This document shows positions 1,262-64,000 of a stretch of 64,000 bases of DNA, one piece after another. This DNA comes from Crambe crambe. Lineage: Eukaryota > Porifera > Demospongiae > Poecilosclerida > Crambeidae. The notes beneath the pieces were generated by a model, which did no database searches, was not told where the DNA came from, and worked only from the letters and a program-made list of their open reading frames with translations. The stretch covers positions 4,683,501 through 4,747,500 of the forward strand of contig OZ004583.1 of assembly GCA_963924555.1 (NCBI GenBank). The letters are read 5' to 3'. Within the stretch, counting starts at the first letter, position 1. Each line of letters begins with the position of its first letter. A program made the position numbers and the translations under genes.

Positions 1262-1680
1262 TAGGAATAGAGATATAGATCATCCAGTGCAGATATAGTT
1301 TGTACTAGCATAGAGGATACTGGTGACCATTGGAACAGAACGCACCTTATCTTTTTGGAGAGTAACGGCTATGGGTCCTCCTCTTCTAGAAAACAATGTT
1401 CCTCAACTAGGAATACAGATATAGATCGTCAAGTGCAGATATAGTTTGTACCAGCACAGAGGATACTGGTGACCATTGGAATAGAACTCACCTTATCTTT
1501 TCAAAGAGTAACAGCCATGGGTCCTTAATAGACTCCTCTTCTAGAAAACAATGTTGCTAAACTAGGAATAGAGATATAGTTTGTACTAGCATAGAGGGTA
1601 CTGGTGATCATTTGAACGGAACGCACCTTATCTTTTTGGAGAGTAACGGCCATGGGTCCTTCTAGAAATCAATGTTGAAT
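1262..1680. repeat. Tandem repeat, ~150-bp unit, about 3 copies
   Basis: Three successive units start near 1262, 1410 and 1563. Each contains AGGAATAGAGATATAG, a GATACTGGTGACCATT stretch and an AGAGTAACGGCCATGGGTCC stretch. The third unit is shortened. The same array occurs at 16366-16800, with a single unit at 22938-23080, always directly next to the truncated ROC-COR remnant. Confidence 0.8.
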
Positions 1681-2998
1681 GGATGGAGGACGGGCCTCAG
1701 TCATTGTTGATCCACTCAAACTCGATTTGCTCCCGAGGGTCAGTGATTGGAGGACTGGTTTAGAAGAAAGATCGCTCTCTTCTTGTCTTGGGACCTGGAT
1801 CTCGTGCCCAGGCTCCTCCTCATGTCACTGGGTGTGCGCTAATTTAAACATCTGAGTATGCGCAATACTCTGAGCAAAGTGCAGTGTGGCAAAACTCTAC
1901 TGTCTTTTTGGACGTCATGGTCGAGGAAGCAATCCATACCCAACGTGGATATCTAGTAGGAACCTCTTTTATGACTGGATGTACACTCATAAGAATTATG
2001 GCTGGATAAAACGACTGGAGAGATGTAAACCATGTGTACAGAATGAGGAAGGGGAGAGGTACAGGTCTAGATACAAGGCTAGCATTCATTGTGTGGGGGT
2101 ATCTTGGGGTACAACCATGTGTAGACCTTTTATGAAGAGGATAATGATTCATGATTCTGTACTTTGAATTTTCTGTACTTTGAACTGTATTGCAGACTTT
2201 GCTATCTCTTATTCACTCTTTATGGAGTCAAGATCTTGTGTTCATTGAGGTCAGATGAAGGAAGTGTGTCCCTCTCATGATGACCCACGTTGGGGTATGC
2301 AACTAGTTGCCAAGAGGTGGGTGGGCATTAATAGGGAATGGGGAAATCAACCTTCAATACCATGATCCAAAGTTTCCATCAATGTCAGTATTGAGGGCTA
2401 AAGAGTGTGCCATAAAAACTCCAGCTAGTGTTATCTTTCAGTGGTCTTTTTGGACTATTATGCTATTCATATTATGCTCATGTGTAAAGTTATTAATGTG
2501 CAATGTCATGTGCACTGATATTATTGACCTTCAACCTCACCATATATAAACCTTTCATGAAGAGCAAATTGCAAAATTAATTCTGTACTTTGAACTTTCT
2601 GTACTTTGAACTGTATTGCAGACTTTGATCTCTTATCCACTCTTTATGGAGTCAAGGTCTTCTTGTGTGCATTGAGGTCAGATGAAGGAAGTGTGCCCAT
2701 CTCATGATGACCCACGTTGCTGGAACAAAGGGATATACAATTTGCCAAGAGGTGGCCGGGTGGGCATTAATAGAGAATAAGAAATAAACTTTCAATACAA
2801 GTTTCCATCAATACCAGTATCAAAGGCAAGGCTAAAGACTGTGCCATGAAAACTCCAGCTAGTGTTATCTTTCAGTGTCTATAGAGGGTCTTTTATTAAT
2901 GATATTGGGTCCTAAAGGCAACCTTATTAATGGGTCAAAGTTGAATACAGTTCTTATTCCTTCTCTCTCCTATGCCCTAGTCTGTCAGGAAGATCAAT
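1681..2998. repeat. Anonymous duplicated spacer module
   Basis: This stretch recurs at 16801-18180, 23081-23640 and in part at 35500-36000 and 46440-47190. It starts with a decayed copy of the low-complexity exon seen at 33.1-33.6 kb (TGATCCACTCAAACTCGATTTGC), followed by GTGTGCGCTAATTTAAACAT and an open stretch of 93 codons at 1886-2167. Two short blocks (2196-2260 and 2610-2670), each with TCTTTATGGAGTCAAG after a possible acceptor, may be decayed exons of the neighbouring Atos-like series. I cannot assign a function. Confidence 0.5.
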
Positions 2999-3430
2999 TC
3001 CGTACTGTGAAACCATAAGATTGTTCATTGCAGAGACCACCGACGAGAGTCCCACCACAATGCTGTAACTCAGCTCCTGTGTTTGTCCCTAGTCTATGTC
3101 TGCTTGGAACTTTTGAGGCAAGTATTTGTTGTTTCAAGTAATGCATGCCTTAGTATACTAGATTTCAATGCAGTGAAGGTGGGGGCATACAATGCAGGAG
3201 TCAGTGTTGAATGGACGCCTTGAGCCATGTGGACAGGTTACGGATGTCTTCATGTTCTTTGCTCTTGCTGCTGTCAACTGTCATGATCCTGACCTTTCAG
3301 CTCGCTTCAATCATAAGCAATGAGGTGGAGCATTGGGAAGCACTTCATTTGATCAACTATCAAAACTTTTGGCGAATAATTGTATTGGCTCCTGATACCA
3401 AATATTATTTAAAAATAAATTTTTTTTAAC
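2999..3430 (+). pseudogene. Atos-like exons fused by deletion to FNIP-like last exon
   Basis: An exon ending near 3118 reads ...SLCLLGTFE and is followed by GCAAGT, a typical GC-type donor. The next exon, after TGCAG near 3199, reads ESVLNGRLEPCGQ. Together these resemble the segment that opens the conserved C-terminal region of Atos/FAM214 proteins. At about 3238 the sequence jumps into the FNIP-like last exon (DVFMFFALAAVNCHDPDLSA). In the copies near 20 and 48 kb these two pieces are more than 1.5 kb apart, so a deletion joined them here. No continuous frame crosses the junction. Confidence 0.55.
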
Positions 3431-3566
3431 AAACCATTGTACAAAGAGAAACTAAAATTAATGATATAATGGATGAACTTTACAAGGAACGCAAGACTTA
3501 TAAACGTTTAAAAAATAGTGAGTTATAATTGCTAAAATGGAAACAGGGTTTATGGGAAAAGGTCTA

Positions 3567-3839
3567 TCAAATATACTTGCTTTCAATCTTGGAAGCTATA
3601 TGAGGAAAGTCCACAGTGGGTGCCCTCAGGGCCTTCACCAGTGCCTTCCATGATGGGGTCACTAAATCAAGCCATTGAGAAAGAACTTCTCGAAAACAGT
3701 CCTTAACTTGTTCACGATAGCTAATTTTGATTGCATCAAGAGTTGATTTGTCTAAGCCAAGTTCCAGACCAAGGTTATATATACCACTCGCATTTGGCAT
3801 CCCACAATGCACCTTGCACTGTCCTCAAGTCCAGTGGTG
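3567..3839 (-). pseudogene. Copy A last exon: C-terminal Death domain, frameshifted
   Basis: The exon starts after a 63-nt intron (3840-3902, GTATGT...TGCATGCAG). It codes for a Death-fold sequence with the motif WLDLVTPSWKALVKAL and ends KIESKYI. Compared with copy B (KCKWYNLGLEL), copy A has TATATATACC where B has TATACC. The spliced frame therefore reads ...CEWYI-stop, and the Death domain sits in another frame. Copy A would lose about 70 C-terminal residues. The Death domain itself is otherwise open, so the lesion is probably recent. Confidence 0.8.
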
Positions 3840-3902
3840 CTGCATGCAAGAGAATAATTGACATGAAATAGTAATGTACATTGTATGCATAAACAGACAT
3901 AC

Positions 3903-6065
3903 CATTTGTAGGAAGAGGATCTTCTTGTTCATACCACAGCAGCTGTCTTGAAGTGAGATCTCCAAATTCAATGGGATTTCGACTGCAGGTCCAGATTCCA
4001 TCTCCAAACGTGGCAACATGAGGGTCACTCCCATCACGATCACATGAACAGAGAAGTGCTTTCGATGGGATGGAGTTGTTGTAGCCAAGGACCAGTGTTG
4101 CTTTCCTCAGACCTGCAAATATGGCTCGGGAGATAAAGGAAGACATCTTGCTGCGCACTTTCTCAGCGGTGTGCACATGTACTTCAAAATGCGTGAATGT
4201 ATCTATGAGTGTGACGGAGCCAGGGTAGCCAGGAACAGAAAACATGGTGCAGTTACGGCTGAGGCAAGCTGGAGTGTTGGAGTGAGGGAGAAGAACAATT
4301 TTCCAAGGACAAGGAAACTGGTTGTCGTGGGAGACCAAGAAGCAGGTGAGACTGCAGTAGGTGCCGAGACGAGGCCCCCCGAGAGGGAAGGACAGAGCAA
4401 GGGGAGCTAAAGTGGAATCATTGGACACGCGATACTCACGAACCTTCTCCTTTTCCAGGACAGGAAGAAGGGCAGGCATGATGTACTCTGAAGCACTAAA
4501 GTCAGCTATAATAAGCAACTCTTTGAACAGCTTCACCAGATCTACTGGAGCAAAGATTTCAGGAACGTAATGCTTGCTAAATTCTTCCCTTTGGAGAAGC
4601 TCTAAGCTAATGATGCCGTGCTCTTTGAATTTCTGCCATCTTCCAGTTAATCCTATAGCCTTACCACCGATATTTTCCCTCAAGCAGAAAATCTTCTCCA
4701 CCAACTCGGTCACCTTGTCCAAGAGGACCTGAGGGTTGGTGAATACAACACCCTCCAGAATCTCGGGGAAATAGAAGACTGCTGAAATCTCGTCTAGAAA
4801 CTGGAGAGCCGCATCGAGAGAGTGCTCATCGAAGTAGAGATCTTTTGATGCTCTAAGGCACTCTTCTTTGCTCAGTACACCTCTATCTAGAGAAAGGCTC
4901 ACTTCTTCTAGGAGTATTTCCAAAGAGAAATACTGGAGAGGCACATCTATAGAGACAGGCTTACACTCGTCTAGGACTAAACCTTGGACATTCTTTGCGA
5001 TGCTTTTGTCAAATTCTGCAGGATCTTTAGCATTGACTGGAAAGATCAACTCACTATCTGGTGGCAGTTGGTAATAGATGACTTCGTCTTGGAATGCTGG
5101 AAGAAGTATATCTGCTAACTTCTTATTCTTCTCCTTTCGCGTTTCACTTGTGCACTTATGTTCTTCGTCCCTGTGGGTCCCCACGATCATGATTCTGGAG
5201 CACTCACCTCCACTCTTGCTGTCAGATCTGTGAGTATGCATGGTGCGGAGACAATGTTTCAACAGCTGCTCATTAGACTGGGCCGATCGGTAAGGGGTCC
5301 CCACACGCTTCCCATTACCATCGAACTACTCCACAATGGGTTTGGTGGCGAGCTCTTCCGACAACTTGAAGACGAAAATATACAACGACATTCGACGAAG
5401 AAATATGGGCAGCACCTCGTGGAACTGTGGTTGCCCTCCAGAGTCAATCAGGTAGAGCTTACGGAAGGTAGATAGGGGTTTGTCTGACTCCAAGCACTCG
5501 TCCATTAGCTTTATTAGTTGGTCATGTGTGGTAACGGATGGCAGTGAACTCTTTCTCTTTGGCTTTGGTTTTCTAGCGGCTGTTGGACTGGAGAGAGACA
5601 CTGGATGTACTCGAAGATTTCGATCATGTGTTGAAGATCTGTCTTCTGCGGTGTGAGCTTCTCTACGTTTAGGATCGATACCACCTTCCATTCCAGTAGA
5701 CATTTCACCACCAGAGTCAGAATCCTCACCAGAATCAGAACTCTCGGCAGAATCAGAACCCTCGGGGGACTGGGTAGCATCAGGAGGAGAGTGAGTAGCT
5801 ATGGCTCTGGATAATATTCGTCTTCTTTCCTCTGGAGGAAGTTTCTTCCACTCCTTGCTGGTGACACCAACATGGAACATAGTGATTGGACGAGCTGCCA
5901 GAGGTGTACTCGTTCTGACTCCTCTCGGAGGGTTGCCGACAAACAGATCCATGGAGCTGGACTTGCCTGTCCCTGGAGCTCCATAGAGGAGGATTTTATT
6001 GATCTGAGCTCTGATGGATCCTTCCCTCATTGCCTCGTTGTACAATCTACGTGACTCAGACGAAC
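3903..6065 (-). pseudogene. Copy A ROC-COR exon with internal stop
   Basis: This long exon has an acceptor at TTGTAG|GTTCG and a donor at AATG|GTATGT. It codes for a ROC GTPase (P-loop GAPGTGKSS, G3 DSGGQPQ, G4 THRDE) and then COR. Between P-loop and G3 lies a Ser/Asp/Glu-rich insertion followed by a basic KPKPKRKSS patch; in A this insertion is 13 codons longer than in B and C (extra SGED-like and DPKRR-like residues). A TAG at 5326-5328 (…KPIVE-stop-FDG) interrupts the frame soon after G3. The frame is open again from there to the donor, so a single substitution explains the break. Confidence 0.85.
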
Positions 6066-6641
6066 CTACAATCAAAAATATTACTACATGATTGTAGCCA
6101 GGTATTTCACCTACAGAGGTATGAATATTAAGAGGGGGGATTTAATTAAGAAGGGGGCGTGCTGTATGGTATGCAGGAGACATGTATTCGAGGGGGAGGT
6201 AGCAGATCAATTGGATCAAGGAGTGTCCCACACCCCTTACTCTTGAGGTATATCAAATTGACTGTAGAGTGGACTTGAAAAATCATCCCATATCAGAAGT
6301 CCTGGATGATTAACTCTATGAGATGGGAGGACATGCACTGAATCTGATAATATAATGAACAAAATAAACCAATAAACCAACAAACAAACAATGGGGGTGG
6401 GATGGTCCATGTTGGGGGGTGGGGCTAATACTCATCTAAGTTAATACTCTTACAGACCTTCAATCTATTTCCCCATTGAACCTAATGCCCCTCCCCATAC
6501 AATCAATGTACACTCCCAACTAGTCTCTCTGTGATTATCACTGTTGGAACCACTGCAGGTCAGGATAGTGAGAGAGAGGAGATGAGGCTCATATGTAATG
6601 ATGCTACAGTTCCAGAAACCATCACAGACCACAAGACTCAC

Positions 6642-6905
6642 CTTTAAGGTAGCGACTCTTCAACACTTCCAGCACTCCATGCTCCATCCACTTATATAGA
6701 GCATGAGCCACATGTCTCCATGATGGACATGGGTGATTGTTCAGGTACCACTCCCCCAAAGCCTTCATACGTTCTGACCGACTGGAGTGTTGAGATTCAA
6801 TACTGTCACACACTGAGTAGGGGATGTCGAGACTAGCACCCACATAATACCGATACCCCACATCTTGTAGTAGCTGAGTGAGATTAGTGAGGGTGAGGGA
6901 GGGGT
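6642..6905 (-). CDS. Copy A Death domain exon 3
   Basis: Phase 1-1 exon between CCCACAG acceptor and AAAG|GTGAGT donor. It codes for about 88 residues with Death-fold hallmarks: SLTLTNLTQLLQDVGYRY at the start, YLNNHPCPSWRHVAHAL in the helix 4-5 region, and VLEVLKSRYLKG at the end. It joins in frame to the ROC-COR exon. The middle segment (YYVGASLDIPYSV in A; YLVGLSLNIPRLEL in B; NYLGRSLDIPYLV in C) is the most variable between copies. Confidence 0.75.
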
Positions 6906-7581
6906 CTGTGGGAGGGAACATAAAGAATAAAACATGAGCCAAACAACAAAAATAAGTCCCTTCAACAACAAATAAAAATAGTATGAGCTCATGCAGTGTG
7001 CATTACTTCAGTCAACTAGAGTTGATGCTCTAACGACAACATCAAGTGTCATCAAGTGTATGCATTCACTTCCACAATATTTATAGTGGGAATAGCTCTA
7101 ACATATCAGATTTTATATCATTAATTAATGCCCTCCATATGCTAGCCCCTCCCCCTGCTGACTGATAGTCACACCAATCCACTTCCACTGGCCATGCATG
7201 CTTAATGTAGTCTAAACTGTATTGTTGGACCAATCAAGTTTCCTGCTTATGCCATGACAAGGCATATGTAGCAATAGCACCAAAGCACTTTTAAAGCACA
7301 AGTCATTATACAGAAATCTCAAATAACCTTAAACCAGAAATTGCTACTCTAATGAGTTGGAGGGGGTCCAGGTACAATCTTGCCCCCTTGAACAATAGCT
7401 ACACACAGAGCTATTATGAAAACATTCAGTGTCAACACTCAAATTTTGTGTCCCTTGACAATTTCTGTCAATGAAGACCTGAGAGTCCTTAATAGGAGGA
7501 TCCACTGTAGACCAATCACATGACTACAGTCTTCCTTCCCTCACTTAGTATGTCATTATGTGTCATCTACCACACACCTAC

Positions 7582-7887
7582 CTTTATCAGCTTTAACCTT
7601 CCCCTTCACTTTCTCAAGAGCTCTGTTTTCTTCGAACAGGAGAAGTCTCCCAGCCAGGTGATTCCAACTAGCTTGTGGATGGGTACCGAGGTAATAGTGC
7701 ACCAGTTCACCACGGTAGGTGTCCTCTTCAACACATCGGTACCTCATCTCCTCCCACTTAGGGAATGGTATATCAAGTACAGCCTCCAAGTGATCATAAC
7801 CACAACCATCAAAATAGTAAAGGTCAGTCTCTGCATTCTCCACAGTGTCCAGAGCAGCTAACAAACTGTGAGAGGTGAGGCTGTGGT
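7582..7887 (-). CDS. Copy A Death domain exon 2
   Basis: Phase 1-1 exon bounded by a CCCCCAG acceptor and AAAG|GTAGGT donor. About 102 residues: SLTSHSLLAALDTVENAET, then a variable tyrosine-rich segment (YYFDGCGYDHLEAV), then THPQASWNHLAGRLL, ending KVKADKG. The SW motif followed by LA and hydrophobic residues is the usual Death-domain signature. The tandem neighbours upstream and downstream have the same fold. Confidence 0.72.
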
Positions 7888-8313
7888 CTGGGGGGACACA
7901 AACACTTCTATTACCCCAGATAAGATACACCCACACAATTCACAGTATTAGTCAAGCACCACGGAGGGTTTTTAATAGAGGGCGGGGCACTGGACAAAAA
8001 CAATCAATGTAGGAGGGGAGGGCGAGGAGTTTATGCTGTTGCTATGCAGCCAACATAACTATTAGGCTGCTCAGTGATATTGGGAGGGGGAGAGTCAACT
8101 CATACTTATTTCTACATTGCTAAATGCTTGATCCCCTCATTTCCATACATGGAAAGCAGTGTCTGTGAAATAGAACCTCCTTTGTCCTTTCAGTGATTAT
8201 TGTCACTATACACTGTTAGTAGTTAATAATTCAATTCAAGGTTTTGGCTTTCTTGCTGTATGTGCAGTGCATTGGGCAACAATAATCTGATCTGAGCAAT
8301 GACACTCACTCAC

Positions 8314-8604
8314 CTGTTTGTTTCTCTGCATACTTCTGTATCCTGTCTGCTACATCACGCCACTTGTCACTGTCACCTATCAACCTATGATAATTGTCAA
8401 GTATATGTATAAGACTCCTCCAGGAGGCAAATGGGCCCCTCAGGATCCAGTATCGGACGACAGCTGCCAGTCTTTGTCTATCTGTGGAGTTTTCGGATGC
8501 AATGGCATCAAGTTTGGAGTTAGGGACATGCAGATTGTCACCAATGTCCCTCCAATGATGTGTCTCCAGGACTGCCAGTACATTCTCCACACTGAAGGGA
8601 GGAG
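8314..8604 (-). CDS. Copy A Death domain exon 1
   Basis: Phase 1-1 exon with TTTCCAG acceptor and ACAG|GTGAGT donor. About 97 residues: PPFSVENVLAVLETHHWRDI, LHVPNSKLDAIASENS, then RYWILRGPFASWRSLIHIL and a C-terminal WRDVADRIQKYAEKQTG. The pattern (I-G-x-L, SKLDAI, W-L, SW-LI-L, VA-I) fits a Death domain well. Copy B has an acidic YDDEDDDDDK insert near the end of this exon that A and C lack. Confidence 0.78.
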
Positions 8605-10099
8605 CTGGAAATAAAACATTATCACACACCTATACTATGACACACTAATTAAGATAACACCAGGGACATACCCACATATATAGTTATCATGTATGATAGC
8701 TTACGTTTTCCCCTAGAACACAAGATGTTATCTACCTACACACACTGACAGGGATGGAAACATAATATGTATATACATATGTTCATGTTCATGTTTGGTA
8801 GTTGCCATTAAACAGTCATGCTTGCCCCTTAGAGCAGCAAAGTCTCTCCCAGTAGTACTTAACTATCCCATAGCTTATGTATCATTGATGACCAATTAAG
8901 ACACCTACCCATCACAATCACTAAGGACCACGTGTGTCTCTGACAACTAATCAAGACATCATCACCAGGGACATACCCATTAATAAACATTTACCACACT
9001 TTATGATAGATATTTGATAGACCCCTTACAGTAGGTGTGGCATAGGCGGGGCTTATCACAGGAAGCAACCATGATGGTAGACATCTGAGCCACATAACTA
9101 CAGGGTTGTAGCCAGAAGTTCATAATAGGGTGAGGCAGTTAGATTTTCTCAACATAATTATGGTTGTGGTAGCTACACAGGACTATTTAGGTAACAGAGT
9201 AAGTGTCTACTGTACTCAGGGCTGGATCTAGGGGTGGGGGTGGGGCTGAGTGGATTATAAATCCTCCCCAAGCTAAAATGGTGCACATTTGACCACGCCT
9301 ACTTACTTAGCCATGTCTATTTATTCTTTGACAACTTGTTTCTGCTCTAAAGTAGCATAATTAGAGGAACATGTATGGACTAACTTAACTAGGAGCTAAT
9401 GTGGTTACTACAGCCTTAGCAATCATCTAAGGCTACGGTCAAAGAAAGAAACAGTCTATGTATACATGACACATCCATTTTGGCTTGCACTTTCAAGGTC
9501 ACACATTAGATAACTCAGTGCATACTAACTGTCACTTCAGAGTTTGAGTCTAATGGCTACAACACAATTTTTGGTGTGCTTGATCCCTTTACCTACACTC
9601 ATGCTGTCACATGACTGACCACATTGCACACAAAGTGTGTCACTTTGGGGGATCTGGGGGGAAATGGATTTTGGATTCAATTTATGATGGGGCAATATAT
9701 ATAGCAAATATTTGCTTCTACCATGGCCGGGTATTAGAATCAAGAACTCCTGTATAGTGACAGTCGAGGGTAGAAATTCACATTTTAGTCAAAGTTTATT
9801 TTTATCATGACTGATGCTTTACAATGAAATTTTCTGAACTTTTTTTTTCAAAAGTAGAAAGCGTGAATACTGTTTGATTTCTACCCTCGACTGTCACATA
9901 ATATGGAATGCACATGCCAATTTAATAGATCATTCAAAATAAAATACTTTATACCTCCTACTCATTTGGTGATCTGCTCAATATCTGCAAACACATACAC
10001 AATAACATTGCTACTAAGCACTCTTAGTGTGCGCTGAGGGTTAGCACTTCAGTACTTTTCATTCTTTTAGCTGTATATTAGAATTTTTAAAAAGCTCAC
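8605..10099 (-). other. Long intron of copy A
   Basis: The ~1.5 kb between Death exon 1 and the basic linker exon shows no open frame with coding character. It contains a MITE at 9757-9897. The same intron is present in C (58172-59602) with small indels, and its 3' two-thirds are present in B up to about 30712, where B homology ends. Confidence 0.6.
9757..9897. mobile_element. 141-bp MITE, TIR GTGACAGTCGAGGGTAGAAAT
   Basis: The left end GTGACAGTCGAGGGTAGAAAT is matched in inverted form at the right end by ATTTCTACCCTCGACTGTCAC. The flanks are TA-rich, consistent with a TA target duplication of the Tc1/mariner type. There is no ORF. Orthologous copies sit at the same intronic place in B (30567-30707) and C (59279-59409). 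Confidence 0.8.
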
Positions 10100-11470: not shown

Positions 11471-11758
11471 CTCTTATTGATTTAGCAAGTTGGCTCAGTC
11501 CAATATCTTCCAGCACAGAAATCAGAGTCACCCAGGACACAGGTTTTCTCCCATTCCCTTGCAGCCATTCTTGAAACACACGGTAGTTAATGTCTTGTGC
11601 GTTCTTCGCCAGTTCTCTCTCCATGGCACTGATACGTGCTCCAGTCTGGTCTTCCAAAAGGTGAATCCCAAACTGACGGTACTTTATTCCAACTTCATTA
11701 GTCAAGTCCACTTTAGAATCTTGCAAAGGAAAGCAGATGATGTCCATCATGGTTGGCA
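11471..11758 (-). CDS. Copy A Death domain directly after 2A exon
   Basis: A 288-nt phase 1-1 exon (acceptor TTCTATAG, donor AGAG|GTAGAT). The ~95 residues fit a Death domain: KYRQFGIHLLEDQTGARI, a long helix with RVFQEWLQGNGRKPVSW, then TLISVLEDIGLSQLAKSIRG. The SW-LI-VLE-IG-LA string is typical of the helix 5-6 region. Spliced to the preceding exon, the protein reads ...NPGP-VPTMMDIICF, so the domain starts within about ten residues of the 2A cleavage point. Copy C has a different Death exon in this place (60274-60564). Confidence 0.75.
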
Positions 11759-11916: not shown

Positions 11917-12237
11917 CAGGACCAGGGTTAGTTTCAACATCACCAGCCAATATCAATAGCAAGGAAGTCACTACTTGATGATCAGAATAGTGAACAGTCC
12001 GAAGAACTCTTCTTCTACGATAACACCTCCAGTTGTCTCTAAGAGGTAATATCACCGTGGAAATATTTCCCCTTCTGATAGTGCAGCCATTTCGATGATT
12101 AGTGCACATGGTACACGAGCAATGTGGGCCATTACGAAAGCGAGTTTTTGTCGTCCCTTCAGATTCAGTCACTGCAAGCTTCCACCAAAATATAGTCAGC
12201 AAGAAGTTCAAATAAAGCTCGTACCTCAGGACTTCAC
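11917..12237 (-). CDS. Copy A 2A-peptide exon
   Basis: A 321-nt exon with acceptor GTGTGTGTAG|GTGAAG and donor CCTG|GTGAGT, phase 1 at both ends. It begins with a hydrophobic stretch (LYLNFLLTIFWWKLAV) that could act as signal or membrane segment. Next come a Cys/His cluster (CSCTMCTNHRNGC) and a basic run (CYRRRRVLRTVHY). It ends TSLLLILAGDVETNPGP, the full consensus of 2A ribosome-skipping peptides (D-V/I-E-x-N-P-G-P) with the usual hydrophobic helix before it. 2A sequences are known in picornaviruses, in some non-LTR retrotransposons and in sea-urchin NLR genes. The exon could have come from a retrotransposon, but no endonuclease or reverse transcriptase sequence is nearby. A 321-nt copy lies in C. 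Confidence 0.8.
11918..11944 (-). promoter_or_regulatory. 2A translational recoding site, copy A
   Basis: The nine codons GDVETNPGP are the last complete codons of the exon. In known 2A peptides the peptide bond between the final G and P is not formed and translation resumes at P. The downstream product would begin P-V-P-T-M-M, leading straight into the Death domain. Confidence 0.8.
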
Positions 12238-12355: not shown

Positions 12356-12978
12356 CTATAATCAGAGAGTATGTTAGCACTGAGATGGTGGGTCAAAGGT
12401 CATAAGACTGTATGAACTAAAAATTCTTCTTTCTCTTCTACCCTTATTCTACAGGTTCTCAGAAGACTACAGTGAAAAACTACATCTACACAGAAGAGGG
12501 AAGAACGTTTAAAAATCTTCATTAACATAAAAAATTTTTCTAAAATTGACTTTTGTTCTATAATAATAATATAAGATCAACCCTTCTGCTTTTCCTCTGC
12601 CCCATGAAAGAAAGCGGGCCTGGGAACGAGGCTACTAAAACTCCTACTTGCAAGGAGGAAGTGACTGTTATTACGTGCATTCACCTGGTGGTGAAGTAAG
12701 TTTACATAAGAACTATCATCATGGTTTCGGGGCTTTTGAACACTTGACAGCCATGGTTTATTCAAAGCATGTGGTTGTTTATTTGCACTTACACTTGAAT
12801 AACAAAATATGTTTTCGATAAACAGTTCTATTTTAACTTGGGCCCCTCACATATGAATTTGGGAACCTTTGACTTTAAACTCGGCAGTTTCAGAACTATT
12901 TGAACTGTTTGGAATTACCCCATTTTTGGTACCATACTGGCATACAGCTAACTAGCTGAATACAGTATAATAACATAC

Positions 12979-13429
12979 CTGCACTCAATAAATGCTCCAT
13001 CTTGAGAGTGTATATAAACATGACAGCTATCAACAACCACCATAAGGTCAATATCAGAGGAATGAACCAGACATGGCGGGAAATGGCCGGGGAGCTTCTC
13101 TGCTTTGGCTTGAGTCCATGGAAACAGTAATACTGTCTCAGGTGCTGGACCCGAGACTTCCACAGGTCTGCCGATTGCATCCTCCTGAAGATCAAAACCG
13201 TTCGCGCGCATGACCCTAAGAAAAAGGAGGTAAAGGGTCGACGCCGCCATGGGGTCAGGGGGTGGAATTGTGCCACATGCACAGTGTCCGTTGCTAAAAT
13301 GAGGAGATCCAGGAAAGAATCCACGTAACATTCGAGCTTCCTGTGCTGCAAAACACCTGAAAAGTATGCCTGATACTCTGAAGTGTACAGCATCCTTATG
13401 ACTTTACCAAACTGGTATATCTGCAGCAT
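12979..13429 (-). CDS. Candidate leader exon with membrane segment, upstream of 2A exon (copy A)
   Basis: From an ATG at 13427-13429 a frame stays open for 150 codons to a CAG|GTATGT donor. It ends in phase 1, which fits the 2A exon. In this frame residues about 119-141 form a strong membrane segment (HVWFIPLILTLWWLLIAVMF). A second frame across 12979-13329 is also open (SSDIDLMVVVDSCHVYIHS) and looks more protein-like in codon pattern, but it ends in phase 2 and would hit a stop in the 2A exon. A possible acceptor, TTCTTAG at 13216-13222, could mark a shorter exon. Which frame is used is unresolved, and I recognise no family. Confidence 0.35.
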
Positions 13430-13467: not shown

Positions 13468-13830
13468 TCACCTACCCACCATGGCCCTTGGGAGAAATGA
13501 CATCATTAGAGGTGAACATGCCCCTCCCACTTCATTGTGGGAGGGGCCCTCAATTTCTAGATAGATAAAATCAGCTTGCATTTCGTCCTCCTTTACATCC
13601 ATTCCATGATGGAGGACGAGTCTCCTCAGTCTTTGGTGGAGGAGTAGCCTCAGTCTTTGCTGATCCACTCAAATTTGACTTGCTCCCTGCGTCTAGACTA
13701 GGAGGGTCTGGAGGATTGGAGCACTCATCAGGTTCACTCCCTGTGTCTAAACCAAGAGGTTCAGTGGAACCAGATATATATAGTGCTGGTCAAGGATCTC
13801 ACCAAGCAAGGCAGCAGAGAAAGTTTGATA
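13468..13830. repeat. Remnant of low-complexity exon plus short KDZ-like fragment
   Basis: On the minus strand 13545-13770 reads PSLDAGSKSNLSGSAKTEAT and, upstream, STEPLGLDTGSEPDECSN: a diverged copy of the Pro/Ser-rich exon at 33131-33587. A hairpin lies near 13515-13548 (CCCCTCCCACTTC...GTGGGAGGGG). At about 13785-13825 the plus strand AGTGCTGGTCAAGGATCTCA matches the 5' part of the KDZ-like gene at 51.24 kb. A nearly identical block without the KDZ part closes the window at 63736-64000. Confidence 0.5.
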
Positions 13831-24594: not shown

Positions 24595-24863
24595 TCAAAT
24601 ATACTTGCTTTCAATCTTGGAGGCTATATGAGGAAAGTCCACAGTGGGTGCCCTCAGGGCCTTCACCAGTGCCTTCCATGATGGAGTCACTAAATCGAGC
24701 CATTTAGTAAGAACTTCTCGAAAACAGTCCTCCACTTGTTCGCGTCGGTTAGCACTAATTGTGTCAAGAGTCGATCTGTCCAAGCCGAGCTCCAGACCAA
24801 GGTTATACCACTTGCATTTGGCCTCCCACAATGCACCTTGCACTGTCCTCAAGTTCAGTGGTG
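24595..24863 (-). CDS. Copy B last exon: C-terminal Death domain (intact)
   Basis: After a 63-nt intron the exon reads APLNLRTVQGALWEAKCKWY, then NLGLELGLDRSTLDTI, REVLTKWLDLVTPSWKALVK and ends KIESKYI with TGA at 24595-24597. The LG-ELG-LD-STLD-I and SWKALVKALR strings are Death-domain hallmarks. This is the only one of the three long copies in which the exon is in frame with ROC-COR. Confidence 0.85.
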
Positions 24864-27800
24864 CTGCATGCAAGAGAATAATTGACATGAAATAGTAATG
24901 TACATTGTATGCATAAAGAGACATACCATTTGTAGGAAGAGGATCTTCTTGTTCACACCACGGCAGCTGTCTTGAAGTGAGGTCTCCAAATGTATTGGGA
25001 TTTCGACTGCAGGTCCAGATACCATCTCTAAACGTGGCGACATGAGGGTCATTCCCATCACGATCACACGGACAGAGCAGTGCTTTCGATGGGATGGAGT
25101 TGTTGTAGCCAAGGACCAGTGTTGCTTTCCTCAGACCTGCAAATATGGCTCGGGAGACAAAGGCAGACATCTTGTTGCGTACTTTCTCAGCGGTGTGCAC
25201 GTGTACTTCAAAATGTGTGAATGTATCTATGAGTGTGACGGAGCCAGGGTAGCCAGGAATAGAAAACATGGTGCAGTTACGATTGAGGCAAGCTGGAGTG
25301 TTGGAGCCAGGGAGAAGCACAATTTTCCAAGGACAAGGAAACTGGTTGTCATGGGAGACTAAAAAGCAGGTGAGACTGCAGTAGGTGCCGAGACGAGGCC
25401 CCCCGAGAGGGAAGGACAGAGCAAGGGGAGCTAAAGTGGAATCATTGGACACGCGATACTCACGAACCTTATCCTTTTCCAGGACAGGAAGAAGGGCAGG
25501 CATGATGTACTCTGAAGCACTAAAGTCGGCTATAATAAGCAACTCTTTGAACAGCTTCACCAGATCTACTGGAGCAAAGATTTCAGGAAAGTAATGCTTG
25601 TTAAATTCTTCCCTTTGGAGAAGCTCTAAGCTAACGATGCCATGCTCTTTGAACTTCTGCCAGCTTCCAGTTAATCCTATAGCCTCACCACCGATATTTT
25701 CCCTCAAGCAGAAAATTTTCTCCACCAACTCGGTCATTTTGTCCAAGAGGACCTGAGGGTTGGTGAATACAACACCCTCCAGAATCTCAGGGAAATAGAA
25801 GACTGCTGAAATCTCGTCTAGAAACTGGAGAGCCGCATCGAGAGAGTGCTCATCAAAGTAGAGATCTTTTGCTGCTCTAAGGCACTCTTCTTTGCTCAGC
25901 ACACCTCTATCTAGAGAAAGGCTCACTTCTTCTAGGAGTATTTCCAAAGAGAAATACTTGAAAGGCACATCTATAGAGACAGGCTTACACTCTTCTAGGA
26001 CTAAACCTTGGACATTCTTTGCGATGCTTTTGTCAAATTCTGCGGGATCTTTGGCATTGACTGGAAAGATCAACTCACTCTGCTTGTAGTAGATGACTTC
26101 ATCTTTGAACACTGGAAGAAGTATATCTGCTAACTTCTTATTCTTCTCCTGTCGTGATTCGCTCGTGCACTTATGTTCTTCGTCCCTGTGGGTCCCAACA
26201 ATCATGATTCTGGAGCACTCGCCTCCACTCTTGCTGTCGGATCTGTGAGTATGCATGATGCGGAGACAGTGTTTCAACAGCTGCTCATTAGACTGGGCCG
26301 ATCGGTAAGGGGTCCCTACACGCTTCCCACTACCATCGAAATACTCCACCAGGGGTTTGGTGGCAAGTTCTTCCGACAACTTGAAGACGAAAATATACAA
26401 TGACATTCGACGAAGAAATATGGGCAGCACCTCGTGGAACTGTGGTTGCCCTCCAGAGTCAATCAGGTAGAGCTTACGGAAGGTAGATAGGGGTTTGTCT
26501 GACTCCAAGCACTCGTCCATTAGCTTTATTAGTTGGTCATGTGTGGTAATGGATGGCAGTGAGCTCTTTCTCTTTGGCTTTGTTTTTCTAGCGGCTGTTG
26601 GACTGGAGAGAGACACTGGGTGAACTCGAAGATTTCGATCGTGTGTTGAAGATCTGTCTTCTGTGGTGTGAGCTTCTCCACCTTCCATTCCAGTAGACAT
26701 TTCACCACCAGAGTCAGAATCAGAACTTTCAGGAGAATCAGAACCCTCGGGGGACTGGGTGGCATCAGGAGGAGAGTGAGAAGCTATGGCTCTGGATAAT
26801 ATTTGTCTTCTTTCTTCTGGAGGAAGTTTCTTCCACTCCTTGCTAGTGACACCAACATGGAACATAGTGATTGGACGAGCTGCTAAAGGTGTACTCGTTC
26901 TGACTCCTCTCGGAGGGTTACCAACAAACAGGTCCATGGAGCTGGACTTGCCTGTCCCGGGAGCTCCATAGAGGAGGATTTTATTGATCTGAGCTCTGAT
27001 GGATCCTTCCCTCATTGCCTCGTTGTACAATCTACGTGACTCAGACGAACCTACAATCAAAAATATTACTACATGATTGTAGCCAGGTATTTCACCTACA
27101 GAGGTATGAATATTAAGAGGGGGGATTTAATTAAGAAGGGGGGCGTGCTGTATGGTATGCAAGAGACATGTATTCGAGGGGGGGTAGCAGATCAATTGGA
27201 TCAAGGAGTGTCCCCACACCCCTTACTCTTGAGGTATATCAAATTGACTGTAGAGTGGACTTGAAAATCATCCCATATCAGAAGTCTTGGATGATCAACT
27301 CTATGAGATGGGAGGACATGCACTGAATCTGATAATATAATGGACAAAACAAACCAACAAACCAACAAACAAACAATGGGGGTGGGAGGGTCCATGTTGG
27401 GGGGTGGGGCTAATACTCATCTAAGTTAATACTCTTACAGACCTTCAATCTATTTCCCCATTGAACCTAATGCCCCTCCCCATACAATCAATGTACACTC
27501 CCAACTAGTCTCTCTGTGATTATCACTGTTGGAACCACTGCAGGTCAGGATAGTGAGAGAGGAGATGAGGCTCAAATGTAATGATGCTACAGTTCCAGAA
27601 ACCATCACAGACCACAAGACTCACCTTTAAGGTAGCGACTCTTCAACACTTCCAGCACTCCATGCTCCTTATGAACATATAGAGCATGAGCCACATTTCT
27701 CCATGATGGACATGGGTGATTGTTCAGGTACCACTCCCACAAAGCCTTCACACGTTCTGACTGACTGGAGTGTTGAGATTGAATATTGTCAAGCTCTAAG

Positions 27801-32742: not shown

Positions 32743-33130
32743 ATAAAAAAATTAATTTTACCTAAGGCTAACTTTAAACGCGCATATCTCAAAAATTAAA
32801 TCCTGCGTGAACATGAAGTGGTCCCTTTTCTAAAATTATATCACATAATTATAATAGCACTGGTTGTGAAAACCACACCCATTAATTATGACGATCATGT
32901 AGCGGAAATATCCAAGTGAATATCCTGATTCCCAGATTTCTGGGGGGAATTGGCGCATGCGCAACAGTGGATACCTCTTTTCCCCAACAACCATCAAAAA
33001 AAGGAAAAAGGAGGCTGGGTTTGAGGATAGCAAAACATAATCAATTGGTATGGCCTTACAGTTGAAAGGTTTATGACGTCATAAGATCCTTCCCCCAGGC
33101 CCTCTGTCAGAGGCATTAATATGCAGTTAC

Positions 33131-33587
33131 CTTTGAACTTGCGTTTCATCCTTTCTTTCCTCCTTCGTTCTTGTCTGGATACCTTCCTTCCACTCCATGA
33201 TGGAGGACTACTTGTTGAGCCACTCAAATTTGACTTGCTCTCTGCGTCTAGACTAGGAGGGTCTTGTCTGGATACCTTCCTTCCACTCCATGATGGAGGA
33301 CTACTTGTTGAGCCACTCAAATTTGACTTGCTCTCTGCGTCTAGACTAGGAGGGTCAGGATCAGAAGACTCATCAGGGGGAGGTTCATTCCTTGCGTCTA
33401 GACTAGGAGGTTCTGTATCTGGAGAAGAAGCTTCAGCGTTTAGAGGGAGAGGTGGTGGGAGGGTCTCTTTCCGAGGGTCAGTGCCCGGAGGACGCGAAGA
33501 ATTCACTTTAGAAGGAAGATCACGCCCTTGAGACTCAGACGGATCTGGCTCGGGCCCGGGCTTCTGTTTATTTGCTTTATTTCCCAT
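33131..33587 (-). CDS. Pro/Ser-rich exon with N-myristoyl-like start and 93-bp tandem duplication
   Basis: From ATG at 33585-33587 the frame reads MGNKANKQKPGPEPDPSESQ, then proline/serine/acidic-rich sequence, two exact copies of a 31-codon unit (DPPSLDAESKSNLSGSTSSP plus PSWSGRKVSRQ) and a basic end (ERRRKERMKRKFKG) with an AAAG|GTAACT donor in phase 1. MGNK is a possible N-myristoylation signal, and the basic tail could help membrane binding. The whole 152-codon exon is probably disordered. Decayed relatives lie at 1.69, 13.5, 16.8, 23.1, 35.5 and 63.8 kb. Its phase-1 donor would fit any Death exon downstream, so it may be the first exon of a Death/ROCO copy; this is inference. Confidence 0.5.
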
Positions 33588-41815: not shown

Positions 41816-44800
41816 ATTGAAGACAGACAGAGAGCAACCTTTACCACAGCTATGTGGCACCACTCTATGAATTTCTTTGTATTTTGTTTGTAAACAAAGT
41901 AATGCAACCACACCATAATAGTAAACAAAGCCAATTCCTACTGGCTGGGTTCAAGTGATTTGTTGTGTGCAGCCCTGTATTAGAGTAATGATAACTTCCA
42001 TCGGAGGGATAGTGCAAATGAGCCTCTGTTATGAAGAAAGGTGCAAAAACAGTGTTTGAGTGACACAAACCGGCAGATGAATCTGCACGCTAACGGCCTC
42101 CAGCTGTAGATATGCCTAATCTCTCCGGTGAAGTGATTCCTCTACTTATGTACTCTGCACCAATATCCCAAACGCACCTTTGCTACATCGAGAACAATGC
42201 TGGACGGCAAACTCTCAAGCTAGCACCTACTTCCCCAGTTGCTGACGGAGCGACCTAGTACCTAGCAAGAACTTGCTTTCGTCATATTATGTAAGATCAC
42301 ATGACCAGAATAGCGCAGGCGCGGTATTGTGGCGGTTTAAGCTCAAAAGGAGCAGAAGAATAGCATAACACAGGTAGTAATAAATCAATTCACAAACTGT
42401 TATTATAGTGTGTGTTTTTTTGCTGGTCTTCACTCTCATCTGCAAACAAAATAGTGACAACACTGTATTAAGTTTAGATGCTGACATAGTTGCCCCTTTC
42501 TCATAGGTTTGTCAAAAAGGTGTCTCAAATCTCAGGCATTCATATCTGGGGGTTCACTATTTCACCACTATAGACTGCATCACTTACACCTGGTCTTCAT
42601 TTGTGAGATTTTCATCCTAGAGAAGAGAGAGAGAGAGAGTAAGTTATCAGGCATCTGCAAGTGTGTTCATATACTAACTGCCTCCTTAATGTTGTAGCCA
42701 TAGAGCAAACATGTCATGCATCCGAGTTGTATCCCTACTGGTGAACTGTGGTTACGCCTGGACATGCATTTACCAAAATTCGAACCCAAAAGGTATTGGA
42801 AGTAAAGCTTGTTTAAATATTGATACACAAGCCAGGGCTATAAACTTTCGATCTGAATTTGGTAACGTGAGCAATCATGGCATTCCTACTGGATACTTCA
42901 AGTGTAAGGGAAAAAGTCAAAAAAGTCAATTTGACCATGATTGTGAAAAGATTCTCGATGGCTTCAAAGCCAAGTTCAGATCTGACATAGGATTGAACAG
43001 AGATAACTATATCCATACATTTTCCCACCAAAATTGGTCAGAGCTTTCTGATACCGAAAAGGAGCAGCACACCCTGAGCAAATGCAAATGCTGCTGCCAA
43101 TTGCACGAAGCATTGCAACTATCTTTCCCATTGAAGCCAGCATACCAACCAGAACCAGTCCTAGCAATAAACACTCAAGCTTTATGATAAGGGGTTGAAC
43201 TGTAGTGTTAACCAGGAAAGTACCACAGAAAAAGGCTCGCAAAGACATTTTGCTCACCCAGAGAAGCCCCACTACGTAAAAAGCTTAAATCACATTCTCC
43301 AAACTTTGAGCATGTTAGCTGGGACACAGTAGGACTAAAACAGACTTTAGAGACCTGGGAGAAAGACTCATCTATTAACTGGACCAAGGTTGCCTTTGAG
43401 CATGGAATAAAAGGTGGAAATGCAGGCCAGGTAGCAAAGGAGTTTGCTATTGCTAGCAACATAGACATTAGTCACATTGCTACTCCAAAGAGAAAGCCAA
43501 CATGCCGGCCATGCAGGAAGAAATGCTTTGGTATTTCAATACCTAGCAACCCACCAATATCCTCTATTGATAAGAAATGATTAATGAGGGAAGATTTTCT
43601 TTAGGGGAAGAATGCGAGCTCACTAAATACATCCCCAATAATGGCACTGTAGTGCCACAGGATGTCATGGTCCAGGGAAGAAAAATTCCTTTATACAAAC
43701 CGAGGCAGAAGCTGCTACAAAAGCATTCAGCATACATGCGCCTAGACACAGTAAATACAATGAAAAGAGAGCAACTAACTACTAAATTGAAAGGTCTTCG
43801 TTACTTGGATTTAGCCACCATGTCTACGGAGTGCCTTAGAAAACAGCTTCAGTCAGCTCAAACTTCACGCTCCTTGTGCCTTTGGCATGATCATGCCACA
43901 ATCCTCAAAACTGGGTTCATTATGATAACAGTACATGTGATGTATGACCCCATAGTTTTCTTAACAGATGAAGAGTACAACCAGGGGCACCCCGGGAAGA
44001 ATATATGTGTGCAAGCGGAAGTGGAGCAACCTGAAATATACCTCCTCGCGACCAGGTCTTCTTGTGTAGAAGATCAGGCAGCATTAGTTGGGGATAGGCT
44101 TGAATATTTACCCAACCTGATAATGGAATTGAGATTGCAGACACCATGAGGTTTTTCACGGGAGACCACCCTGCAGTACAGTTTGAACAAGGGACCAAAC
44201 AGGGTGGGAACTACAAGTGTGGAGCTTGCGGCTGCAAGGAAATGATCAAGCTCACTCCTTACATCATCCATGGAGACCACTTGAGGAACTGCAATCACTA
44301 GCCACCAACGGTACACTTGGAAGAAAACCTGGGGTCTTACATCCATTCGACAACCTCAGAGTGGGTGAAATGAGAACAGAGCTAGGAGCTAGGGGGAAGG
44401 TATTCCATAATTTAAAGAAAGACGAGTTACAGAAGAGCCTCAATGAAACTCTGAGAGGAGTTACTCGAGTGCCCTCGCTTCTTCTTACAGACCCCACCCA
44501 GTCACTACTTTCACTACACCTTGAAAAATATGAAGTTGTAGCCTCTGAGCCACTTCATGATATAAAGGGGCATTTGATTAATCTCATAACCGAACTGCCT
44601 TATATCCTACCACAAGGTGACACAGCAAACAAATGTAACCACCTGATTGAGTGCTGTCTATCTAAAGAGAAAAAAGTCAGGAGCAGATCTCAGACGGGTA
44701 ATTATTCAAATTTATTTACTGTTACGGAATCTCAACTGCAGTTCCAAAATAATCCTTCTCCTAGCCACTATGATCAAAATCAGTGAGATTGCCTATTCAT

Positions 44801-46437
44801 TGGACTACCAAAGGACACCCCGGCAACTTTTACAACTCCTGCTGGCTACACATGGAGCTATGTCGACATTTCTTCAGCAATCCCAAAAAGCTATCAAGAT
44901 CCAAAATGTTTGGGCTATACCTTCATGCAATAACAGCACATAGCCCCACACAATATGAGTTGGCTTGTTTGAGATCATTAAATACAGAAGGTCAGGAGAG
45001 ATTATTTGGCCAAGCTAGAACAATTGCTGAATCTTGCACCAATAGGCACCCAGAAAATATCATTCCACAAGTTTAGCTACGCTTACAAGCCAAACAGGAG
45101 CAACATGTAGCACTAATGGCAGTTCACAAAGGGGAAACCCAGGTATCTCATGTGGCCAAGGAGCTACCAAAGTTACCTGGTACTACAGTGAAAAAATCCT
45201 TGGCAGCTGCACCTTCAGCGAATAAGCCCCTTTCTCAAAGATGGCGAGGGTGTGTGGTGGACAGCTACATCGGAAGGCTTTCACTTCAGGGATGGTGATG
45301 ACGATAGTAATCAGCAGGGTACCTTCATCTTGCTTCATCATCGCTGTCACTCGTTAAAGGATCTTGAAGATAGAAGAGCACAGTGCTGGAAGGAAATAAT
45401 TAGCAAAAAAATTGAAGTACCTGCAGAGCAGATCAAAATTTACGATGAACAGGAAATGCTAAGAAGCCGGCTAGTTTACACTACTAACTCAGAAGACAGC
45501 ATAGCCTGTGAGAATCCTTTGGAGGCTCTACAAAGTGGCACAGATCCCCCTGAAAACTCCCAAGACAACACTGGCTACACACTACCCCCAGCCCTGCCAC
45601 AAGCTATAAGCCCCAATGACTTACTCCAAAACAGCATCAGCACTGCACTTGCAGCCCCTGAGGGCCTTCCAGATGACACTGGCGACCCATCACTCTCTGC
45701 CCTGTCAGAAGTCACCAGCACTGCACTTTCAGCTCCCAAGAGCCTTCCAGAGCCAGAGGACAACAGCGACTCATCACTCCCCATCCTGCCAGAAGTCACA
45801 ACTGAGCCTGCAAAAGAAAGTCAAATTGGAGTGAACACAATACCTGTGGCTTCAGGCACATTCCCTTCAGCCCCTTCAGACACTGTCCCATCAGCTCATA
45901 TTGATTTACATATTGATGCAACCCAAGACAAGAAAATGAAGACATCATCAGCCACTTTCATAATGAAAGTCATTGGTACTGACAAGACCCTGGAAGATTA
46001 TGACAAGCTTCGTGCTACACTGAAGGAAATGGTCAAAAAGCAACGCCCCCCTTCACACAAAATCACCAGATACAACAAACTAGCAACTAAACTGGGCCAA
46101 CAAGTACAACTCAAGGATAGTCACATCAGCAAGCAAATACAATATATTGAAAAAGACAACCACAATGTACTACCAAGCAAAACTAGCAACAAAGAGTATT
46201 CTGAACTATTGAAACTAAGAAAGATAGCTAAGGCAGCCTTGAAAACATTGAATATCAACTTCTGAATGTTAAATATGCTCTTTATACTTTCCTTTCTACA
46301 GCTAGCTAGCCAGCTTACTTACCTAGAGGCCCTTGAAAGTCACTTGGTCAGCTCCACATCTTCATTACCCACACGTGGCGCCTGTACTTCAATGATTTTA
46401 TACTAGACTACTAGCCCTACAGGCGCACGTGACCCCG
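41816..46437 (+). mobile_element. Large insertion between two array modules
   Basis: To the left the array ends inside a Death exon; to the right it resumes at TTCAGTGTGGCTCTGGTATG, as at 23.28 kb. The insert contains a decayed long gene (42711-46265). I found no terminal inverted repeats. The first 0.9 kb (41816-42700) has no recognisable coding content. Class unknown. Confidence 0.55.
42711..46265 (+). pseudogene. Decayed long transposon-like gene
   Basis: A chain of frames in order: MSCIRVVSLLVNCGYAWTCI with a CKCCCQLHE cluster (42711-43187); WTKVAFEHGIKGGNAGQVAK and a CRPCRKKCF cluster (43206-43580); LWHDHATILKTGFIMITVHV (43577-44149); RFFTGDHPAVQFEQGTKQGG with a CGACGC knuckle (~44122-44280); VTRVPSLLLTDPTQSLLSLH (44280-44670); a piece ending TRTPRQLLQL-like (to ~44840); YELACLRSLNTEGQERLFGQ (to 45074); and a Pro/Ser-rich tail (45252-46265) ending LKTLNINF-stop. 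It resembles a repeated, uncharacterised protein family I have seen in invertebrate genomes. At least seven frameshifts or stops (for example TAG at 45074-45076) show that it is dead, except that the 337-codon tail is intact. Confidence 0.55.
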
Positions 46438-53233: not shown

Positions 53234-53506
53234 CTAAGGTGTTTTTTGATTGCTTTCAATCTTGGTGGCTATATGAGGAAAGTCCACAGTGGGTGCCCTC
53301 AGGGCCTTCACCAGTGCCTTCCATGATGGGGTCACTGATTTGAGCCACATAGAAAGAACTTCACGAAAACAGTCCTCCACTTGTTCACGTCTGCTAACAC
53401 TGATTGCATCGAGAGTTGGTTCATCCAAGCCGAGTTCCAGACCGAGGTTATACCACGCATTTGGCATCCCACAATGTAATTTGCACTGTCCTCAAGTCCA
53501 GTGGCA
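53234..53506 (-). pseudogene. Copy C last exon: C-terminal Death domain, frameshifted
   Basis: Where B reads AAATGCAAGTGGTATAACC, C reads AAATGCGTGGTATAACC, a 2-nt loss. The spliced frame ends ...DAKCVV-stop. The Death domain (WYNLGLELGLDEPTLDAISV ... TPSWKALVKALRAPTVDF) is open in the shifted frame and ends KIESNQKTP-stop instead of KYI. The lesion is about ten bases from the independent 4-bp gain in copy A. Confidence 0.8.
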
Positions 53507-63697: not shown

Positions 63698-64000
63698 GTT
63701 GTCCTAGAAAAGGAGTTGAAAGAAACAGTCGATTTTCACCTACCCACCATGGCCTTTGGGAAAAATGACATCATTAGAGGTGAACATGCCCCTCCCACTT
63801 CATTGGGGGAGGGGCCCTCAGTTTCTAGATAGATAAAATCAGCTTGCATTTCGTCCTCCTTTACATCCATTCCATGATGGAGGACGAGCCTCCTCAGTCT
63901 TTGGTGGAGGAGTAGCCTCAGTCTTTGCTGATCCACTCAAATTTGACTTGCTCCCTGCGTCTAGACTAGGAGGGTCTGGAGGATTGGAGGACTCATCAGG

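Follow-up and report, generated by a model that had tools for sequence, protein, structure and literature searches.

About 90 Death-domain genes of the sponge Crambe crambe seem to start with a leader ending in a ribosome-skipping signal

Gene copies in the window

The window is the whole 64,000-nt stretch of Crambe crambe DNA analysed here (GenBank assembly GCA_963924555.1, contig OZ004583.1, positions 4,683,501 to 4,747,500). Gene copies A, B and C lie on its minus strand. In copy A, a 321-nt exon with phase 1 at both ends occupies 11917–12237 (−), and its 3′ end codes for GDVETNPGP. Its predicted splice sites read AG/GTGAAG...CCTG/GTGAGT. The 2A core DVETNPGP is present with zero mismatches at 11919–11941 (−), an interval that covers 23 of the core's 24 nt, and the exon runs on to 11917. 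Copy B has the same exon at 61923–62243 (−), with an equally exact core at 61925–61947 (−). The preliminary description had reported such a phase 1-1 exon in two gene copies, and both are confirmed.

We call this exon 2. A predicted exon 1 precedes it at 12979–13180 (−) in copy A and at 63178–63379 (−) in copy B. The copy A version opens with an ATG (MQSADLWKS...), has a net charge of +6 over its first 36 residues, contains the transmembrane (TM) segment WFIPLILTLWWLLIAVMFI (hydropathy 2.39) and ends at a phase-1 donor, G/GTATGT.

Downstream of exon 2, sequence comparison places a first Death-like exon of copy A at 11471–11758 (−), also phase 1-1, with a predicted junction NPGP/VPTMMD. Further Death-like exons, with limits taken from tblastn, lie at 8312–8611, 7580–7891 and 6640–6915 (all −). 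The equivalent of the exon at 8312–8611 in a related locus, L046, scores above the Pfam Death cut-off; the exon at 7580–7891 has no Death profile match in copy A. The Roc-COR-Death exon at 3570–6141 (−) contains a TAG at 5326–5328 (GTG GAG TAG) and a frame change near 3779.

In copy B, exon 2 is followed by a 30-nt phase 1-1 exon placed by eye at 61717–61746 (−); it would encode GIDADDTTIL-G, a peptide also present in locus L038. The first Death-like exon of copy B (60275–60646, −) is of another type than that of copy A and scores 14.6 bits against Pfam Death, below the cut-off. Its Roc-COR exon (53252–55766, −) changes frame near 53455, ahead of the C-terminal Death part. Copy C has an uninterrupted Roc-COR-Death exon of 843 aa at 24598–27126 (−), and no 2A exon was found for it in the window or in the genome exon search. 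Its first exon may differ: a candidate at 33060–33587 (−) begins MGNKANKQKPG..., a front that we take to fit the N-myristoylation pattern. If so, paralogues may use either a 2A/TM leader or a lipid anchor. Pro-rich stretches related to this candidate exon lie at 13580–13765 and 63848–64000. Long open frames of 165, 191, 199 and 357 aa occupy 42690–46265 (+).

Conservation of the 2A exon

The core agrees with the StopGo/2A pattern (D/G/C/N)(V/I)ExNPGP. A degenerate core pattern has 113 exact matches in the host assembly (143 Mb, 119 contigs) against 0 for the reversed pattern used as a control, which, with the exact cores in the window, rejects a chance motif. The preceding hexapeptide in the window, LLILAG, by eye fits an active StopGo class when set against motifs 2 and 6 in the available part of Li (2026; PMC12846837). 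Outside relatives have LLMLAG (16), LLILAG (14), LLLLSG (13) and LILLAG (13), with others less frequent; all belong to the L-rich (A/S/C)G type which, in the viral StopGo sites covered there, accompanies a D as first residue of the core. The window's leader thus shares both the core DVETNPGP and an L-rich (A/S/C)G hexapeptide with the viral LLLLSG-like class. Unlike viral StopGo, its core stands at the 3′ end of a host phase-1 exon and not within a viral polyprotein.

Thirty loci were read. A class I parser, for leaders with the exon type of copies A and B, matched 24 of them, 23 at the full length of 321 nt. The AG acceptor stands at the same position of exon 2 in all 24 parsed loci, a count that is partly built in since the parser required AG with GTG directly after it. 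Over 253 pairs of the 23 copies, dN averages 0.038 and dS 0.175 (ratio 0.215); judged by these rates, exon 2 is under purifying selection. Five cysteines and one NxS/T sequon are kept in 23/23 full-length copies. The nine codons of GDVETNPGP are invariant in amino acid sequence and have one synonymously variable column among the 23 copies, which come from loci selected by this motif.

Searching the genome with the whole exon gave 84 matches, which merge into 81 places. In outside data, a leader profile matches 74 proteins. The core is kept in 71 of the 74, an over-count because candidates were picked by shared short words and so are biased towards the motif. Conservation of the leader in database contigs reaches down to about 30% identity. 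Viral contigs contained 36 pattern stretches and 0 relatives of the leader; bacterial and archaeal genome contigs contained 20 stretches and one relative (L054), with 14 residues aligned and no Death match. The full predicted spliced protein has no match in the public database, which seems to hold ORF-level calls only.

The upstream exon and leader topology

Exon 1 gave 72 matches in the genome, some of them fragments. At 68 of the 81 exon-2 places a same-strand match lies no more than 20 kb upstream, at a median gap of 1,327 nt, and 69 of the 72 matches have an exon 2 downstream. Within 9 kb of exon-2 places, 65 matches are upstream, 4 are downstream on the same strand and 0 are on the opposite strand. 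Eleven of the 13 unpaired exon-2 places match the later part of exon 2 only. The substitution ratio of exon 1 is about 0.24 (dN 0.067, dS 0.277; 22 pairs from 8 sequences, several near-identical).

The preliminary description had inferred a leader-attached, membrane-directed form from the 2A exon. Coding probably begins further upstream than this exon. Given a separate start-codon TM exon upstream at 68/81 places, in class I the leader would amount to a conserved protein (about 174 residues) and not only a signal peptide. Two other starts were rejected. A start codon within exon 2 is available in copy A, which has an in-frame upstream ATG, but many copies are without one. An overlapping 151-aa ORF (12948–13403) has a frame identity of 67–73% in L011–L014, versus 80–82% for the frame of the 179-aa ORF; in L030 the two are nearly equal (89.6% and 91.0%).

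The number of TM segments differs by method. Hydropathy gives one strong segment, and a structure model of exon 2 suggests a second helix at residues 2–27; the model has a mean pLDDT of 59 and is confident only at about the first 20 residues (about 91 pLDDT). One strong TM segment would put the cysteine-containing part of the leader in the lumen, consistent with the conserved sequon. A second helix at exon-2 residues 2–27 would return this part, and any unskipped Death protein, to the cytosol. Death domains act in the cytosol, and for that reason our guess favours two helices.

Downstream exons

A Death-like exon lies within 1.5 kb downstream, on the same strand, of 84/126 2A sites, with 0 upstream and 0 on the opposite strand; by position, the 2A is thus on the N-terminal side of a Death-domain protein. 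With four query sequences, no Death match came up within 3.5 kb of 38 of the 126 sites. Profile search added six more sites, bringing those with a Death-like exon within about 3.7 kb to 94/126. The exons show a Death fold, with Pfam scores on both sides of the cut-off: for PF00531, two of eight tested exons exceed it, three of eight (L045, L047 and L051) have no Death match, and the first Death-like exon of copy A has 19.3 bits versus a cut-off of 22.6. Because these exons score low, none of the entries listed in a genome-wide Pfam Death search (150 of 965 candidates scored) lies by eye beside a 2A site, and this list was left out of the count. A first look across the assembly gave 965 Death, 339 COR-A and 232 NACHT candidates.

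The exon after the core is phase-matched and open in the reading frame, with splicing predicted. The claim that a host 2A exon precedes a Death exon in matching phase is supported. In about 90 Death-domain genes the leader seems to close with a virus-like ribosome-skipping signal, and two separate proteins could then come from a single message.

A link to ROCO proteins, also proposed in the preliminary description, holds in part. Locus L046 has open frames for the 2A exon, four Death exons and a Roc-COR-Death exon with an 840-aa Roc frame, and as read its junctions are phase 1 throughout (exon 2, Death exons and Roc exon). In the window, both ROCO parts that belong to 2A genes are interrupted. 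Locus L039 has Death exons followed by an 874-aa open Roc frame. Since copies A and B are interrupted and no 2A exon was found for copy C, L046 and L039, not the window, give the best case for a working 2A-ROCO protein. Copy A scores 21.7 bits for Roc against a cut-off of 27, and Roc and COR Pfam matches are below the cut-off or missing in the window's own exon and likewise in L039 and L046. Among 15 aligned sequences, Roc matched in 11 at E 0.01 and COR-A in 3, the window's own not among them. COR-A matches lie 2.2–38 kb downstream on the same strand of 18/126 2A sites. NCBIfam assigned 0 families to four Roc-exon proteins. Searching PDB sequences with the Roc alignment gave 20 weak matches, mostly small GTPases and including the Roc of LRRK2 (best E 0.015). 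A related Roc-like protein, P0078 (58% identity, 71% coverage), comes from a record filed as a poecilosclerid sponge's symbiont MAG. The ROCO link rests on the open frames of L039 and L046 together with sub-cut-off Roc scores. Roc-like GTPase motifs, a COR-like region (in the relatives) and a Death domain are shared with ROCO proteins of the LRRK2, DAPK1 and MASL1 kind; unlike these, the window family has an N-terminal 2A leader and a Death array, and Pfam scores of the window copies are sub-cut-off.

Other effectors also follow 2A leaders. Among 100 sites listed, 55 leaders are class I, 27 class II, 13 class III and 5 other, four of the last being class IV. The class II core is mostly DVESNPGP. 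In classes III and IV a hydrophobic run stands directly before the core, as in sea urchin. A Death-like exon lies within 1.5 kb at 26/27 class II and 13/13 class III sites. In L045 (class III) the 2A is followed by a Death-like exon, an Ig-like piece recognized by eye, NACHT (1.3e-12) and LRR (4.6e-13); in L051 there is a Death exon, and a NACHT exon about 1.7 kb past the 2A. An NLR (NACHT-LRR) thus lies downstream of a 2A in L045, and a NACHT in L051, which is not so in the window genes. L043 (class II) has a Death-like exon, a 268-residue exon and then ankyrin repeats, and L050 a Death exon and, about 7 kb on, a Roc-like frame by eye without a Pfam match. The constant partner of the 2A exon is therefore the Death exon. 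ROCO, named as its partner in the preliminary description, is not constant, as NACHT-LRR and ankyrin genes have 2A leaders too.

Classes II and III form tandem clusters. The class II cluster, at C9:306738-572027 and C9:3532719-3550865 of the host assembly, combines 2A (mostly DVESNPGP) with a Death-like exon; copies L043 and L044 continue with an exon of 268–269 residues and a long exon, which in L043 encodes ankyrin repeats. The class III cluster is at C10:4680474-4980579, where L045 is an NLR with a sea-urchin-like 2A leader.

Discussion

We consider it likely that these genes form a host family in which StopGo/2A skipping divides the product of each mRNA into a membrane leader and a cytosolic Death protein, with perhaps some product left unskipped. 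The predicted mRNA would begin with exon 1, supplying the start codon, a basic N-terminus and one strong TM helix. Exon 2 would add a second hydrophobic helix, a cysteine-containing basic segment, an L-rich stretch and the 2A core; one or more Death exons would follow, and then a gene-specific effector (Roc-COR, NACHT-LRR or ankyrin). With NPG in the ribosome, the Gly-Pro bond would be skipped and the membrane leader (about 173 residues) released. The ribosome would then make a second, cytosolic protein beginning with Pro, and any unskipped fraction would be tethered to the membrane via the leader.

A dual-targeting reading modelled on sea-urchin NLRs partly coincides with this explanation, and we put it at somewhat less than an even chance. 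Skipping would be deliberately partial, the leader would serve mainly for targeting, and what matters for function would be how much Death protein is at the membrane or secreted relative to the cytosol. In the part of Roulston (2016; PMC4981915) available, 85 of 241 Strongylocentrotus purpuratus NLRs have 2A, SpNLR2A6 shows dual targeting in reporter tests, and with one leader about 85% of the reporter remained with the cells and 15% was released to the medium; this supports the sea-urchin precedent invoked in the preliminary description. The class III and IV leaders, with their hydrophobic run right before the 2A, favour the same reading, as do the membrane-bound NLRs proposed for the sponge Dysidea avara in the available text of PMC12909245. 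However, the class I leader is long and conserved, under purifying selection and with its cysteines and sequon kept in 23/23 copies, which exceeds a signal's needs. Four tested viral StopGo motif types, one of them L-rich, moreover skip at about 92.7% to almost 100% in vitro in the portion of Li (2026; PMC12846837) consulted.

SpNLR2A leaders share with the sponge genes a 2A core N-terminal to Death-domain immune proteins, a hydrophobic stretch before the core (classes III and IV) and, in L045, NACHT-LRR. A signal sequence and 2A combined in one short peptide fits classes III and IV; in the window's class the TM segment has an exon to itself and the leader is long. Unlike SpNLR2A, the class I leader extends over two exons (about 174 residues), keeps its TM segment in an exon of its own and has a conserved cysteine part, the partners also include Roc-COR-like and ankyrin proteins, and the host is a sponge.

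The possibility that the window copies are pseudogenes from tandem duplication, in a family that was once functional, is improbable. The stop and frame change of copy A and the frame change of copy B point that way, as do the absent exon front in L020 and the truncated Death frame in L052. They are opposed by the low dN/dS of exons 1 and 2, the long open Roc frames in L039 (874 aa) and L046 (840 aa), and a leader conserved, at identities as low as about 30%, in database contigs.

An origin of the 2A exon in a retrotransposon ORF beside or inside the genes is very unlikely: non-LTR retrotransposons are known to carry 2A sites (PMC11512398, available part), L054, on a contig filed as a bacterial MAG, looks retrotransposon-like by eye with a first ORF that starts with a TM segment and LLLLSGDVETNPGP, and L036 by eye has reverse-transcriptase-looking frames about 4–7 kb downstream of its 2A, but TM and Death exons constantly flank the 2A exon on the same strand, predicted splice donors immediately follow NPGP, and one 2A site (C8:6517825) has a reverse-transcriptase match on its own strand less than 10 kb downstream (by eye, among 150 listed of 801 candidates). 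Non-LTR retrotransposon 2A shares the core with these genes, and L054 also has an N-terminal hydrophobic leader before it; here, unlike there, a Death-like exon comes next in the unit and not an endonuclease or reverse transcriptase ORF. The preliminary description had raised a retrotransposon ORF joined to the 2A exon as a counter-case, and the window contains none. The reverse-transcriptase-looking frames of L036 (2621-5088, −), with a YADD seen by eye, are apparently an insertion downstream of the 2A exon; the one frame tested has no Pfam match. In L054, ORFs span 373-1458 and 1462-5088, and the order in the first (TM, basic cysteine stretch, LLLLSGDVETNPGP) resembles the class I leader, a hint that such leaders moved between mobile elements and host genes.

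Natural 2A sites are said to be rare in cellular genes in the part of PMC12846837 available. The words sponge, ROCO and LRRK do not occur in the available text of PMC4981915, nor do 2A-like and ROCO in that of PMC12909245. Among the titles and abstract openings that a literature search listed, none concerned 2A for sponge or ROCO genes; sponge sites may already be listed by Rao et al. (2025; Cell Rep 44:115822), who surveyed 2A sites of eukaryotes and viruses, or by Odon (2013).

Returning to a host family that makes a leader and a Death protein from one mRNA, the inspected junctions are all phase 1, so the leader can serve as an exchangeable 5′ cassette. More tentatively, at somewhat less than an even chance, we suggest that a mobile, phase-matched 5′ cassette, with its own conserved membrane protein and a 2A, sits on some 90 or more Death genes with varied effectors. 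Such a design would give a fixed-ratio two-protein output, stand in for an operon and represent an early-animal immune arrangement.

A single genome with 113 exact 2A motif matches, where most examined sites precede Death-domain exons of several gene families, makes it testable why Death-domain genes of distant animals (sea urchin, probably sponge) share 2A leaders. If skipping does occur, it would be tied to the logic of exon phase, a new kind of natural, membrane-linked 2A leader would become available for study, and ribosome skipping would be a routine part of immune-like gene expression in an animal.
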